Of a stretch of DNA of 64,000 nt, positions 38,736 to 45,293 are shown in pieces; position 1 is the first letter of the stretch; the number at the start of each line of letters is the position of its first letter. The DNA is taken from NCBI RefSeq assembly GCF_002979475.1, contig NZ_PCOY01000004.1:124001-188000 (forward strand). Reading direction: 5' to 3'. Position numbers and translations under genes: made by a program. This stretch comes from Microbacterium sp. MYb62. GTDB lineage: Bacteria; Actinomycetota; Actinomycetes; Actinomycetales; Microbacteriaceae. The notes below the pieces were generated by a model. The model saw only the letters and a program-made list of their open reading frames with translations. It had not been told where the DNA came from and searched no databases.

Positions 38736-40184
38736 ATGAACGATTCCGCGGCACACCGCGACGACTGGACCGAGAGCGAAGAGCTGGCAGAGCGGATGAT
38801 CCCGCTCATCGGGGCGCTCCGACGCGAGCACGACGTGGTCACTTCCCTCCACGGCCACCGGCTGCTCGGGCTGTCGGCGACCGGACTGGTCGAGGTGCAC
38901 GAGCGCGTGGCCCAGCTCGGACACGAACGCCTCCCCGTGGCCGACAGCCTCGCGGTGCTGGAAGCGATCCACGCGCTCGCCCCGGGCGCTTCCTCCCTCG
39001 ACGTCGCCCGACTCGTCGCCGGGCATGCCGAGAGCGGCCAGACCCTCGAGACCTACCTCGCCGAGGTCCTCGCCCCCGCGATGGGAGCCGTCGCCGCCGA
39101 ACCCACCGACGTCGTGCTCTACGGCTTCGGACGCATCGGACGCCTGCTCGCCCGCATCCTCATCGCCCACACCGGCGGTGGCAGCGGACTCCGACTGCGC
39201 GCGATCGTCGTCCGCCGTGGCGCCGACAACGACCTCGTGAAGCGCGCATCCCTGCTCCTGCGCGATTCCGTGCACGGCCGTTTCGCCGGCTCCGTCACCG
39301 TCGACGAAGAGGCCGAGCAGATCATCGCGAACGGCACTCGCATCCAGGTGATCTACTCCGACGACCCGGCATCCATCGACTACACCGCCCACGGGATCGA
39401 CAACGCCATCGTCGTCGACAACACCGGACGCTGGCGTGACGAGGCCGGTCTCTCGCAGCACCTGCGCTCGAAGGGCGTCGCCCGCGTACTGCTCACCGCC
39501 CCGGGGAAGAGCCCGCTCAAGAACATCGTCCACGGCATCAACGACCACACGATCGCCGACACCGACCGCATCCTCTCGGCCGCCTCCTGCACGACGAACG
39601 CGATCACGCCGGTGCTCGCCGCCATCGACGAGGCGTACGGCGTCGTCAAGGGGCACGTCGAGACCGTGCACTCGTTCACGAACGACCAGAACCTGATCGA
39701 CAACTTCCACAAGGGCGACCGACGGGGACGCTCGGCCGTGCTCAACATGGTCATCACCGAGACGGGGGCAGCGAAGGCCGTCGCCAAGGCGCTCCCGCAG
39801 CTCGAGGGCAAGCTCACCGGCAGCTCGATCCGCGTTCCCACGCCCGATGTCTCGCTCGCGGTGCTGCACCTGACCATCGCGCGGCCCGCGACCAAGGACC
39901 AGGTGAACGACTACCTGCGCCGTGTCTCGCTGCACTCCAAGCTCCGCCAGCAGATCGATTACGTCGAGAGTCCCGACGTCGTCTCGACCGACTTCGTCGG
40001 ATCCCACCGCGCCGGCATCGTCGACGGGCTCGCCACGATCGCCGACGACGACACCCTCATCCTGTACGTCTGGTACGACAACGAGTTCGGCTACTCGTGC
40101 CAGGTGATCCGTGTGCTCGAGGTCATGGCCGGATCCCACCCGATCGTGCTCCCCGAGCGCCCCGAGGTGACTCTGCAGGGCTGA
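38736..40184 (+). CDS. gapB: Glyceraldehyde-3-phosphate dehydrogenase, long GapB-like form
   Basis: A 482-residue GAPDH has an N-terminal extension of about 120 residues before the Rossmann motif G130-F-G-R-I-G-R136. The catalytic cysteine is Cys285 in S-A-A-S-C-T-T-N-A. H-S-F-T-N-D-Q-N and the C-terminal W-Y-D-N-E-F-G-Y-S are intact. The length and extension match the GapB (GapX) type of Corynebacterium, which serves mainly gluconeogenesis. PEP carboxykinase and a RamB-like regulator lie 3 kb downstream, which supports that role. AAGGA precedes the ATG. Confidence 0.88.
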   Translation: MNDSAAHRDDWTESEELAERMIPLIGALRREHDVVTSLHGHRLLGLSATGLVEVHERVAQLGHERLPVADSLAVLEAIHALAPGASSLDVARLVAGHAESGQTLETYLAEVLAPAMGAVAAEPTDVVLYGFGRIGRLLARILIAHTGGGSGLRLRAIVVRRGADNDLVKRASLLLRDSVHGRFAGSVTVDEEAEQIIANGTRIQVIYSDDPASIDYTAHGIDNAIVVDNTGRWRDEAGLSQHLRSKGVARVLLTAPGKSPLKNIVHGINDHTIADTDRILSAASCTTNAITPVLAAIDEAYGVVKGHVETVHSFTNDQNLIDNFHKGDRRGRSAVLNMVITETGAAKAVAKALPQLEGKLTGSSIRVPTPDVSLAVLHLTIARPATKDQVNDYLRRVSLHSKLRQQIDYVESPDVVSTDFVGSHRAGIVDGLATIADDDTLILYVWYDNEFGYSCQVIRVLEVMAGSHPIVLPERPEVTLQG

Positions 40185-40216
40185 GCTCCCTGATGCGCCG
40201 CGTCGGTGGCGCCCGG

Positions 40217-40228
40217 CATGATGAGGTC
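40217..40228 (+). promoter_or_regulatory. Possible leaderless -10 element
   Basis: CATGAT (40217-40222) stands six bases before the ATG of the winged-helix gene, and no ribosome-binding site is seen. Weaker than the TAnnnT examples in this window. Confidence 0.4.
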
Positions 40229-41275
40229 ATGAACACCGCGACCCTGCGCGCCGAGCGCCTCCGATCGCACCGCCTCACCGCGCCGACGCGCACCGTGGCG
40301 GATGCCGCACGCCACATGCTCGCCGTGCAGAGCCAGGACTTCACGGCCGGACGGTGGGCGCTCGCGGTCCGCAGCAAGGACCCCGTCGGGCTGCCCGCGG
40401 TCGACCGTGCGTTCGACCGCGGCGAGCTCGTGCGCGGCTGGACCATGCGAGGGACGCTGCATACGATCCCGGCGCGAGACCTCGGCTGGGTGCTGCAGGT
40501 CACCGCCGGGCGACAGCGTCAGCAGGCGGCATCCCGGCACCGCGATCTCGGCATCGACGACGACATGATCGCCGCGACTGTGCGGGCCCTGACACCCGCA
40601 TTGCGCGACGGCGGACGCACACGAGCCGAGGTGTTCGAGATCCTCGAAGGCATCGGCGTCGATCCGACGGGCCAGCGCGGCATCCACCTGCTGTTCACCC
40701 TCACGATCGACGGACTCATCTGTCAGGGGCCCGTGGTTCCGCGGGCGGGCGTCGCACGGGAGCAGCGGTTCGTCCTCGTCGAAGACCACATCCGCGAGCA
40801 CGCCTATCCCGCCGACCCGCTCGCGGAGCTCTTCGTCCGCTACATCGACGGTCATGGCCCCGCGGGCGTCGCCGACTTCGCCTGGTGGTCCGGGCTGACA
40901 CTCGGTCAGGCACGCGAGGCGGTCGAGCGCGCGGCAGGACGTGTCCAGCAGGTCGACGAGGGGACGTTCGTCGCCCTCCAGCACCCGCGCAGGGCGGCGG
41001 GTGCGGCATCCGTCCACGCCCTCGGCGCCTTCGACGAGTACTACATCTCCTACGCCGATCGCACCACGGTCTGCGCCCCGGAACACCTGGCGGCCGTCGG
41101 CCCCGGCAAGAACGGGATGGTCCGTGCGACGCTCGTCGAGCACGGGAGCGTGATCGGCACCTGGTCGCATGCGAGTGCCACCCGTCACACGCCGCCCGAG
41201 CTGTTCGTCGCCCCCGGCGAGCCCCCTGCAGTGGATGCCGCCCTCACCCGCTTCGCCCGTTTCCTCGGCGACTGA
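40229..41275 (+). CDS. Winged-helix DNA-binding domain protein (AlkX/YcaQ-related family)
   Basis: A 348-residue protein of the 'winged helix DNA-binding domain-containing' family that is widespread in actinobacteria. The N-terminus has A-A-R-H-M-L-A-V-Q-S-Q-D-F and R-G-W-T-M-R-G-T-L-H, both typical. The C-terminal part contains G-A-F-D-E-Y-Y-I-S-Y and N-G-M-V. Relatives include YcaQ-like DNA glycosylases acting on crosslinks, but whether this protein has that activity cannot be judged from sequence alone. It starts 44 bases after the gap gene. Confidence 0.8.
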   Translation: MNTATLRAERLRSHRLTAPTRTVADAARHMLAVQSQDFTAGRWALAVRSKDPVGLPAVDRAFDRGELVRGWTMRGTLHTIPARDLGWVLQVTAGRQRQQAASRHRDLGIDDDMIAATVRALTPALRDGGRTRAEVFEILEGIGVDPTGQRGIHLLFTLTIDGLICQGPVVPRAGVAREQRFVLVEDHIREHAYPADPLAELFVRYIDGHGPAGVADFAWWSGLTLGQAREAVERAAGRVQQVDEGTFVALQHPRRAAGAASVHALGAFDEYYISYADRTTVCAPEHLAAVGPGKNGMVRATLVEHGSVIGTWSHASATRHTPPELFVAPGEPPAVDAALTRFARFLGD

Positions 41276-41422
41276 CGCCCCGTGCGGACCCGTGTTCTCA
41301 CTCGTCCGCGCCGCCGACCGGTGCCGCCCCAGCTGTGGCTCGGACTCGGGCTCGTGCTCGGACTCGTGCTCGTGCTCGTGTCGCCTGCGTGGTGCCGCCC
41401 CCGTCGCGCACCCAAGGTGCCC

Positions 41423-41481
41423 GCCGACACGCCAGATGTCGGACGCATCGGCTGACGGCATCCGACATCTGGCGTGTCGGC
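41423..41481. repeat. Large nested inverted repeat
   Basis: Two perfect 21-base arms (41423-41443 and 41461-41481) flank a 17-base spacer. Each arm is itself a small hairpin, CCGACA-CGCCAGA-TGTCGG. It is more than 145 bases from either flanking stop codon and has no T-run, so it is not a standard terminator. It may be a dispersed palindromic element or a protein-binding site. Confidence 0.85.
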
Positions 41482-41598
41482 CCCCGAAGTGGGCCGGGGT
41501 GAGTGGTCACACCGACGGTCGCCGTGCACAGGCACTCCGCGGTCGCTGTTCCCGGCACCCGTGGTGGCAGTTCACGGGGCCGTCAACGTTTGTCGTTC

Positions 41599-41622
41599 GC
41601 GGTCACGTCGTGGGGTGACCGC
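41599..41622. terminator. Possible terminator of the RamB-like gene
   Basis: GCGGTCAC (41599-41606) pairs with GTGACCGC (41615-41622) around an 8-base loop. It lies about 60 bases beyond the stop of the minus-strand RamB-like gene. Confidence 0.4.
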
Positions 41623-41679
41623 GCACGGTCAGCGCACGCTCCGCGACCGGTCGATGCTCTACGCCGTGCGCCGGACGGG

Positions 41680-43122
41680 CTACTCGCTCGCGTGACGTCC
41701 GAGGAAGTTGTACACCTCGTTGTCGTCGACGCCGGGGAACGCGCCGCGGGGGAGCGGCGAGAACATGTGCGTGTGCACGCGGGCACTCGGCCAGGCGCGA
41801 CCGTTCCAGCGCTCGGTGAGTTCGGCCGAGGGGCGGCGGCAGCAGGACTCGTCGGGACAGGTCGACACGGCACGGTCATTCGTCTCGCGACCGCGCCACC
41901 AGCGCGCGTCGTCGAACGGCACACCGACGGTGATCGAGAACTCCCCGTCGCTCGACGATCCGGTCTGCGTCGAACACCAGAACGTCCCCGAGGGGGTGTC
42001 GGTGTACTGGTGATGCTCGGTGGTGCGGTTCTGTTGCGTGAAAGCCGCCCGCGCCTGGAACTTCCGGCACACCCGCTGCCCTTCCACCGCTCCGGTGACA
42101 TCCATCGGCAAGGGCAGATCGTCGTTCTCGTACACGCGTGTGATGGCGCCGTTGGAATCCACGCGCAGGAAGTGCAGCGACATGCCGAGGTGCTGGGTGA
42201 GCAGGTTCGTCATGCGCATGCCCGCGCCCTCATGCGTGACGCCGAACGCATCGCGGAAGTCCTCGACGGCGAGGTTGCGGTCCTTCTTGGCCTGCTGCAG
42301 GAATGCGACGGCCGCGGTCTCCGGCATCAGGCAGCACGCGGCGAAGTAGTTGATCTCGAGGCGTTGCTGGAGGAAGTCGGCGTAGTCGGTGGGCGGCGTG
42401 TGCCCGAGGTAGCGGTGCGCCATCGCCTGCAGCGCCATCGATCGCAGGCCGTGGCCACCGGGGATGGAAGCAGGCGGCAGGTAGATCCGCCCGTTCTCGA
42501 GGTCGGTGACCGAGCGGGTGGAGTGCGGGAGATCGTTGACGTAGATGAGTTCGAAGCCGAGCTTCTCGGCCATGATGCTGACCGTGCGGTGTGTGAGCGC
42601 GCCCTGCACGTGCCCTGCCGCCTTGAGGTGCTTCTCGGCGAGCTTCTCGATCTCGGGGAGGTAGTTGTGCTGCGCGCGCATCCGGAGCCGCAGCTCGGTG
42701 TTCGCGCGCCGTGCCTCCTCGGGGGTTGCGATGGCCTCCCTCTCGCGACGTTCCAGTTCGCGGTGCAGGCCGAGGACCGACTCGATGGTCTCGTCGCTCA
42801 TCCCCTTCGTCACGCGCACCGGGGCGACGCCGAGCTGGCGGAACACCGGACTCTCCTGGGCGCGTTCGAGCTCGATCTCGAGCGCCGCGCGACGGTTCGG
42901 CGGCTCCCCGGAGATGAGGTCGGTGACCTCGGTGCTGGTGGCCTGCGCGATCGCCTGCAGCAGGGAGAGCTTGGGTTCGCGCTTGCCGTTCTCGATCAGG
43001 CTCAGCTGGGAACCGGCGACGCCGACGAGGGCGCCGAGCTCGTCGAGCGTGTATCCGTTCTCGAGCCGGTGGTGACGGATGCGGTGGCCGAGAGTGGTGA
43101 GGTGGATGCCGGAGGACGCCAT
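41680..43122 (-). CDS. ramB: RamB/ScfR-like XRE-family transcriptional regulator
   Basis: A 480-residue regulator has an N-terminal XRE helix-turn-helix (Y-T-L-D-E-L-G-A-L-V-G-V-A-G-S-Q-L-S-L-I-E-N). The middle is an ImmA/IrrE-like region whose usual H-E-x-x-H is degenerate (A-H-R-Y-L-G-H), and the end is Cys-rich (S-T-C-P-D-E-S-C-C-R-R-P). This layout is that of RamB, which controls acetate and carboxylate metabolism genes in Corynebacterium. It is divergent from pckG. The ATG follows TAGACT by six bases, indicating a leaderless transcript; no ribosome-binding site at proper distance is present. Confidence 0.87.
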   Translation of the reverse strand: MASSGIHLTTLGHRIRHHRLENGYTLDELGALVGVAGSQLSLIENGKREPKLSLLQAIAQATSTEVTDLISGEPPNRRAALEIELERAQESPVFRQLGVAPVRVTKGMSDETIESVLGLHRELERREREAIATPEEARRANTELRLRMRAQHNYLPEIEKLAEKHLKAAGHVQGALTHRTVSIMAEKLGFELIYVNDLPHSTRSVTDLENGRIYLPPASIPGGHGLRSMALQAMAHRYLGHTPPTDYADFLQQRLEINYFAACCLMPETAAVAFLQQAKKDRNLAVEDFRDAFGVTHEGAGMRMTNLLTQHLGMSLHFLRVDSNGAITRVYENDDLPLPMDVTGAVEGQRVCRKFQARAAFTQQNRTTEHHQYTDTPSGTFWCSTQTGSSSDGEFSITVGVPFDDARWWRGRETNDRAVSTCPDESCCRRPSAELTERWNGRAWPSARVHTHMFSPLPRGAFPGVDDNEVYNFLGRHASE

Positions 43123-43134
43123 TCCTTGAGTCTA
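43123..43134 (-). promoter_or_regulatory. Leaderless -10 element of the RamB-like gene
   Basis: On the minus strand TAGACT (43134-43129) is followed by CAAGGA and then ATG. Six bases between hexamer and start codon place the transcript start at the ATG. Confidence 0.55.
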
Positions 43135-43138
43135 GCGA

Positions 43139-43154
43139 AAGAATTCAAGTTCTT
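43139..43154. promoter_or_regulatory. Inverted repeat between ramB-like gene and pckG
   Basis: AAGAA-TTCAAG-TTCTT lies in the 109-bp divergent region, close to the leaderless start of the RamB-like gene. It could be an operator for one or both genes. It is not a close match to the Corynebacterium RamB site I know of. Confidence 0.35.
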
Positions 43155-43231
43155 ATCGTCCGATGTACCCGAAAGCCGCGCTCCAACCGGAAGAAGATAG
43201 GTGCAACGCCCCATACTTCAAAGGAGCAGAC

Positions 43232-45130: not shown

Positions 45131-45158
45131 CTCGGCGCCCCGTGCGCCGCAGATCCGC

Positions 45159-45215
45159 GAAGGCGGGACATCCGAGACCGACCCATGGCTGAGTGGTCTC
45201 AGACGTCCCGCCTTC
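45159..45215. terminator. Long hairpin between convergent genes
   Basis: Two 21-base arms (45159-45179 and 45195-45215) pair with only two mismatches around a 15-base loop. It sits between pckG and the convergent ABC exporter gene and is likely a bidirectional terminator, though it is much longer than usual. Confidence 0.65.
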
Positions 45216-45293
45216 GTGTTGTCGTTCGCCTCCCCCGGACGAGAGGGCTCGGCGATCGCAGGGGCTCCGAGACCGGACCGGGACCGCGACGCG

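Follow-up and report, generated by a model that had tools for sequence, protein, structure and literature searches.

The window (the whole 64,000-nt stretch of Microbacterium sp. MYb62 DNA analysed here) contains two genes that converge on an intergenic region of 404 nt (41276..41679): on the left, a gene for an AlkZ-like DNA glycosylase (40229..41275, + strand) and, on the right, a gene for an HTH regulator (41680..43122, - strand), which we take to be RamB/ScfR-like. Within this region lies an element consisting of a left arm, CCGACACGCCAGATGTCGG, with the inner motif CAGATGTCGG (41424..41442, +), a 19-nt spacer, ACGCATCGGCTGACGGCAT (41443..41461), and a right arm that is the left arm exactly inverted (41462..41480, -). 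The arms are exact inverse 19-mers and, when the next bases are counted, perfectly paired over 21 bp (41423-41443 and 41461-41481); hence the initial annotation of the site as two perfect 21-base inverted arms is verified, as is its gene-free setting, which is bounded by the stops of the two convergent genes. The small hairpin that was noted within each arm (CCGACA-7 nt-TGTCGG) is present as well, so that a single arm is itself a small dyad; this inner dyad is not general, however, because in two other repeat families considered below (termed TGCACGA and GATCTGC) the arms are direct repeats of a motif. Immediately to the right is an outer block, CCCCCGAAGTG (41481..41491, +), which is weakly conserved with a consensus of roughly CCCCCGnnGTG. 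Its mirror image, CACnnCGGGGG, occurs to the left of the element in many relatives, in which the order of the longer hairpin is CACnnCGGGGG, arm, spacer, arm, CCCCCGnnGTG; at the window element the block is unmirrored.

Among inverted repeats at most 200 nt apart within the 64-kb window, the pair at 41423-41481 is the top entry, and the annotated low chance of so perfect a structure is borne out: the 19-mer in loose form (at most 3 mismatches) has an expectation of 0.12 per shuffled window, and 2 of 100 shuffles contain it at least twice; the two occurrences observed are exact. In three relatives (G005, G014 and G022) the AlkZ-like and HTH regulator genes, when aligned, end only 3-9 nt apart. 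Two further features of the window may be mentioned: a short degenerate repeat of the type GCTCG(T/G)GCTCG to the left of the element (41332-41373), similar stretches of which match elsewhere in relatives, and a hairpin (45158-45216; 22 nt, 91% complementary) between the convergent ends of the PEPCK gene and the next gene, which is plausibly a terminator.

The element is one member of a dispersed family. In the host genome (G000, genus Microbacterium; 4.15 Mb in 51 contigs) the 19-mer occurs with at most 3 mismatches at 48 places, 28 of them exact, versus 2 places for a backward control. Forty-two of the 48 places make 21 pairs, in which the arm spacing is always exactly 19 nt, and 10 of these 21 copies are perfect across all 38 arm bases. 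The suggested 'dispersed REP-like pair' thus corresponds to 21 host copies of a strict inverted-doublet design. The arms are nearly identical among these copies and the spacers are unrelated, that of the window element having the fixed length but letters without clear likeness to those of the other 20 copies. The best matches between spacers comprise 7-11 of 15 positions (column-shuffled chance: mean 8.7, 95% point 10), the exception being a tandem pair on contig C2, whose spacers are alike at 14 of 15. Because no other two host spacers are clearly alike, plain copying and pasting of the whole element is not seen; a recent common donor for the spacers was also considered and, the same tandem pair excepted, lacks clear support.

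Among the 16 host copies that lie outside genes and have two called neighbours, 9 are flanked by convergent genes (the tandem pair supplying two of these), 6 by tandem genes and 1 by divergent genes; among 340 comparison gaps of at least 100 nt (about 1 Mb of two relatives), 46 are convergent and 125 divergent, gene calling being by a simple codon-usage script instead of a standard gene finder. Elements are frequently located no more than about 150 nt from a contig end (in the host genome, for example, at C12:65, C23:141, C34:232604 and C50:169510), and in G128 one spacer is found at the ends of two contigs (L124/L125); hence it is probable that the hairpins break assemblies, and copies may be undercounted. 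A scan against Rfam yielded just three matches, each far under the gathering score, and a search of a plasmid collection yielded one weak match of 29 nt.

Within the genus, 18 of 149 genomes contain a match with at most 3 mismatches over 24 arm bases (the sole match in G109 being doubtful), and an exact-pattern scan found matches in Microbacterium only (15 stretches). The initial annotation proposed a search for copies in this and related genomes and took a sequence that was unique and unconserved in relatives as grounds for abandoning the idea of a repeat; with multiple host copies and matches in relatives, the sequence is neither. For the comparison of sites across genomes, 97 copies were kept after removal of those with more than 8 mismatches and of L082, L083 and L091, which duplicate G066 or G128 copies. 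At orthologous sites, that is, sites at which both flanking genes are homologous (although a few nuclease-locus pairs set an upstream against a downstream copy), identity is 89% for the arms, 42% for the inner 15 nt of the spacer and 37% for the flank, based on 84 non-independent pairs. A hypervariable spacer is unsupported, because spacer and flank diverge alike. Comparison of arms across 21 pairs of genomes gives an identity of 0.904 between genomes, at orthologous and other sites alike, and a slightly higher one, 0.928, within genomes.

Changes at arm positions affect one side only in 156 cases, are compensatory in 14 (10 of these at one position) and affect both sides without restoring pairing in 7. 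Since most changes are non-compensatory, the constraint on the arms acts on sequence more than on pairing as such. Such a pattern fits a sequence-specific protein that would use the arms and ignore most of the spacer. The spacer is not wholly free, because A+T is enriched at its positions 5 and 6 (0.75 and 0.72, respectively, versus 0.25 in the flank). Compensatory changes within the spacer are at or below shuffled values for 8 of 9 spacer pairs (two of which are nearly invariant), the sole excess being at pair 8-12 (0.46 versus 0.36, p 0.014, uncorrected).

These observations bear on whether the element could act as an intrinsic terminator in both directions, or as an RNA hairpin at 3' ends under selection for structure, as might be supposed from the many copies at convergent 3' ends and from a predicted fold that is very strong (z -7.0 and -8.1). 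Both the one-sided arm changes, which outnumber the compensatory ones by 156 to 14, and a missing T run (a search of window positions 40000-43200 found 0 sites with hairpin and T run) disfavour this reading; moreover, terminators would presumably have no need of identical 19-mers across loci, and one copy is in frame within a protein gene. A role as terminator or RNA structure is therefore considered very improbable.

The copy within a protein gene is found in the host's lactonase gene and likewise in CBA3102 and G036; lactonase-like genes with the element are located at L054:903-2081 (-), L084:5644-6810 (+) and L138:854-2029 (-). The element is read in frame within a variable loop of the lactonase-like propeller, where it gives a peptide of the form ADTPD(V/G)G...RPTSGVSAP. 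In a close relative, G077, the lactonase gene is without the element, is 72 nt shorter and keeps its frame; no element copy was found in G077 at up to 3 mismatches, nor is a homolog of the nuclease described below listed for it. Palindromic repeats read in frame within protein genes are known from the Rickettsia palindromic elements. In this respect the lactonase copy resembles these, but the copies of the present family lie mostly between genes and a candidate cognate enzyme can be identified for them.

Close relatives also differ in which elements they possess. G036 and G076, which are about 90% alike in most compared flanks and have same-locus nucleases of different clades, contain 18 and 2 copies, respectively. 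Among 17 G036 sites tried, 6 could be located in the fetched part of G076: at 2 the element is present, at 3 it is absent and at 1 neither was called. A clean empty site occurs only in the lactonase gene, the other absences between G036 and G076 and between the host and G077 involving rearranged intergenic DNA. G042 and G107 are likewise close relatives (98% at one flanking-gene pair) whose nucleases differ in clade; between the aligned flanks of one intergenic site, G042 has a CAGATG-type element and G107 a GATCTGC-type element. At the locus termed P0007, among the 30 best loci, an element of the host's type was called in G036, G076, G042, G005 and G083, and in G128 the palindrome called is a different one; imperfect copies below threshold occur there in G033 and G107. 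Elements of three unrelated families are found at one and the same intergenic site in different species (L139, L157, L247 and L268).

REP-type repeats are tied to RAYT transposases (PMC3116915), and the initial annotation proposed a check for a single-copy REP-associated transposase. A classical REP/REPIN moved by a RAYT (Y1 tyrosine transposase) would have the same doublet architecture as that described for REPINs (PMC3116915), but the Y1 transposase domain, PF01797, was not found in the host genome and was found in 1 of 149 genus genomes, the same search being positive in 5 of 14 control genomes. On these results a RAYT is rejected as the partner, and the classical REPIN reading is scarcely credible. 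What was found instead is a different single-copy enzyme flanked by repeats: 43 kb past the window on the same contig (C34:231658-232491), and between two element copies, is a gene for a protein with AbiEi-like and Vsr/DUF559-like nuclease parts, which is the sole homolog in the host genome at E <=1e-50. In the host, G005, G071, G033 and M. paraoxydans EaN35-6, two copies about 1-3 kb apart enclose a gene for such a protein, about 278 residues long (in G071 and G033 they enclose a second gene as well); in G128 the gene is bracketed likewise, but the contig stops at one copy.

Pfam assigns AbiEi_4 to the N-terminal and DUF559 to the C-terminal part of the protein, both above the cut-off, although AbiEi_4 barely so (in 3 of 3 proteins); PADLOC gives weak AbiEi hits, and an NCBIfam scan of three nucleases assigned no family. 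An AlphaFold2 model built from 69 sequences has a mean pLDDT of 92.9. Its residues 1-174 resemble AbiEi (6y8q, Foldseek E 4.5e-5, Z 7.1; also 1zel), and its residues 176-277 resemble nucleases of the Vsr fold with Z scores of 7.8-10.2 (3hrl 10.2, I-Bth0305I 9.9, Vsr 7.9), with the caveat that common arrangements can yield Z scores of 7-8. Five residues (E181, D208, E218, D220 and H225), which by reference to Vsr-type enzymes we take to be catalytic, are invariant in 69 of 69 aligned proteins; both the fold and the conserved acidic and His residues by which Vsr-like (EDxHD) nucleases are recognized are present. The two scanned neighbours at the main locus encode a fumarase and a PhoH-PIN protein, neither of which is a DUF1814 (AbiEii) toxin.

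A homolog of the nuclease at E <=1e-50 is present in 89 of 149 genus genomes; outside Microbacterium, among the 198 genomes of the order that were searched, homologs at 1e-40 were found in 2 genomes only, belonging to one other genus of the family. Seventy homologs were examined by rank out of the top 73, three being skipped as partial (G128:C33) or as having an internal stop (G132:C68 and G124:C183). Palindromes with the design of the element were called upstream of 21 of these, downstream of 17, on both sides of 7 and on any side of 31, versus 0, 4, 0 and 4, respectively, of 48 control genes; in the 21 homologs with an upstream call, 96-134 nt separate the palindrome from the nuclease gene. 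The flanks also have stronger predicted folds than those of controls, both upstream (median -52.4 versus -43.5 kcal/mol, p 2e-8) and downstream (-49.8 versus -46.0 kcal/mol, p 0.002). A repeat common to the upstream and downstream flanks (score >=16) is found for 47 of 70 homologs, versus 1.8% of mismatched pairs, and for 44 of 70 the homolog's own downstream flank ranks best of all 70; the remaining 23 have no shared flank repeat at this threshold. Among the 47, the shared repeat matches better in direct orientation in 40, in inverted orientation in 6 and equally in 1 (direct in 22 of 23 strong cases, with scores >=25). A homolog at E below 1e-90 is present in 17 of the 18 genomes that carry the host's type of element and in 26 of 131 non-carriers (Fisher p 6e-10), a limit that was chosen afterwards and a p value uncorrected for kinship. 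As a side observation, several nuclease genes (L221, L229, L177, L178, L181, L186, L189, L194, L204 and L225) are preceded, at a distance of about 195-275 nt, by a second short hairpin, approximately GCGGATGCCGCGGGGA-5 nt-TCCCCGCGGCATCCGC, which in L221 and L229 is found on either side of the gene.

Of the 70 homologs, 32 are found at a single locus, next to fumarase and/or PhoH genes. Clustering by flanking genes places 29 of the 70, from 29 species, at this locus (19 with both genes and 10 with one); the further three, L221, L225 and L229, are outside the tree. Repeats at this locus belong to several families, among them CAGATGTCGG, GATCTGC and TGCACGA. In a tree built from 28 proteins (the alignment of 69 sequences omits one long row, L217, and therefore contains 28 of the 29 clustered rows), three families require 2, 2 and 1 changes, versus shuffled means of 7.8, 5.5 and 4.7, and none of 500 shuffles reached values this low; support is weak for many branches, however, and clustered labels are also expected from descent alone. 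The labels were assigned partly by eye, in that L173, L175, L179 and L183, automatically called 'other', were relabelled CAGATG from their flanking elements; L176 and L180 have diverged CAGATG-like motifs. With these caveats, the tree indicates that repeat family follows nuclease clade, though part of the association is shared ancestry, because both are inherited. Residue 28 of the predicted recognition helix is alone in being fully disjoint among the three repeat families, a possible specificity signature that is suggestive only.

Each of the two other families tested is scattered in its own genomes and missing from others searched: GATCTGC occurs at about 10 places in G126 and at none in the host, G034, G042, G111, G036 or G004, and TGCACGA at 9 places in G034, 9 in G042 and 11 in G107, and at none in the host, G126, G014, G083, G004 or G036 (the counts for G126, G034 and G042 include nuclease-side copies). 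There are also mismatches. CAGATG-type elements in G107, G083, G034 and G042 are unlike the flanks of the best nuclease homolog, and the 11 TGCACGA places in G107 are unlike the flank of its present nuclease. The latter are read as an old population left after a swap of nuclease alleles; equally, they count against a strict match of repeat to nuclease, and the CAGATG-type copies in G083, G034 and G042 do so too.

It could be argued that some other transposase, encoded elsewhere, moves the palindromes and that the nuclease gene is a tolerant landing place or a passenger, given that spread driven by the nuclease is a step that we infer. This would leave unaccounted for that at one fixed locus the bracketing repeat changes with nuclease clade, and that shared flank repeats are found also at homologs in other genomic contexts; hence this possibility is rated as very unlikely.

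Taken together, the evidence is best explained if the element is a REPIN-like doublet serving as the recognition site of an AbiEi-Vsr fusion nuclease that probably maintains and spreads such elements, a reading given a probability of about 0.6 on the basis of sequence comparison and a structural model. Within it, the partnership of nuclease and repeat is well supported; that the nuclease binds and cleaves the elements, and moves or maintains them, is what we infer. Specifically, the winged-helix/AbiEi part would bind the arm motifs as an oligomer, thereby setting the Vsr-like nuclease domains above the spacer. Given the nuclease domain, the DNA may be nicked or cut at that position and then repaired, by which elements could be kept or restored and occasionally spread, replaced or swapped; this would take place where an insert is tolerated, mainly at convergent gene ends.

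A different role for the same protein would be that of a regulator or chromosome-organising factor for which the elements are fixed binding sites, with no movement by the nuclease; a site for a chromosome-organising protein was among the suggestions of the initial annotation. Consistent with this are the constraint on arm sequence with a drifting spacer at orthologous sites, the many sites common to several species, the upstream copy placed 96-134 nt ahead of the gene in 21 homologs and the description of AbiEi as a DNA-binding autoregulator of inverted repeats (PMC7319586). Promoters, however, are avoided (9 of 16 copies are convergent and 1 of 16 divergent, versus 46 and 125 of 340 gaps), the in-frame lactonase addition and the presence or absence of elements among relatives point to gain and loss, and the five putative catalytic residues are invariant in 69 proteins. 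Fixed binding sites are thus regarded as unlikely, though deserving of serious consideration.

The element is best compared with REPINs, which are described as having two inverted conserved ends, a spacer of defined length, extragenic dispersal and an enzyme gene beside its own repeats (PMC3116915), and for which co-evolution of repeat and enzyme has been proposed (PMC3116915); a GTAG or CGTC tag at one end is also described for the REPIN/RAYT system (PMC3733652). The inverted doublet, the length-defined spacer, the many dispersed copies and the cognate enzyme gene beside the repeats are shared. In contrast, the enzyme here is AbiEi-Vsr/DUF559 rather than a Y1 transposase, compensatory changes in the spacer are scarce and there are 21 copies, whereas REPs usually exceed 100 (PMC2817692). 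Because the defining enzyme was tested for and is absent, the element is classed as working like the REPIN system, not as a member of it.

With regard to the nuclease, known AbiEi members bind inverted repeats (PMC7319586), and the modelled protein resembles the AbiE type IV antitoxins (AbiEi, Rv2827c) in its predicted N-terminal winged helix and AbiEi-like fold (6y8q, 1zel). It differs from them in adding a C-terminal Vsr-like domain, in having fumarase and PhoH-PIN neighbours at the scanned locus and in having proposed sites that are genome-wide. Conversely, the predicted fold of residues 176-277 resembles that of Vsr endonuclease and the homing endonuclease I-Bth0305I (Z 7.9 and 9.9), but the nuclease domain here is fused to an AbiEi module, and the gene has cognate repeats on either side. 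A literature search for DUF559 with inverted repeats or AbiEi and for Microbacterium repeats, from whose coverage subscription papers were mostly absent, found nothing relevant.

A broader interpretation, advanced tentatively and with somewhat less than even confidence, is that AbiEi-Vsr nucleases fixed at host loci rule their own scattered palindromes, and that allele exchange would give rise to a new site family, which may take over old positions (as in G107 versus G042). By the same tentative account, these would constitute a new class of actinobacterial repeat system, REPIN-like in kind, in which a Vsr-type nuclease would either spread short sites by homing or rewrite them where they lie. 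If true, an enzyme family unrelated to the RAYTs would likewise be paired with dispersed palindromes of its own, suggesting that partnerships between repeats and enzymes arose more than once, and an AbiEi/DUF559 family that has no assigned function would gain a role. Moreover, the natural allele differences among close species of Microbacterium would let the turnover of such repeats be followed.
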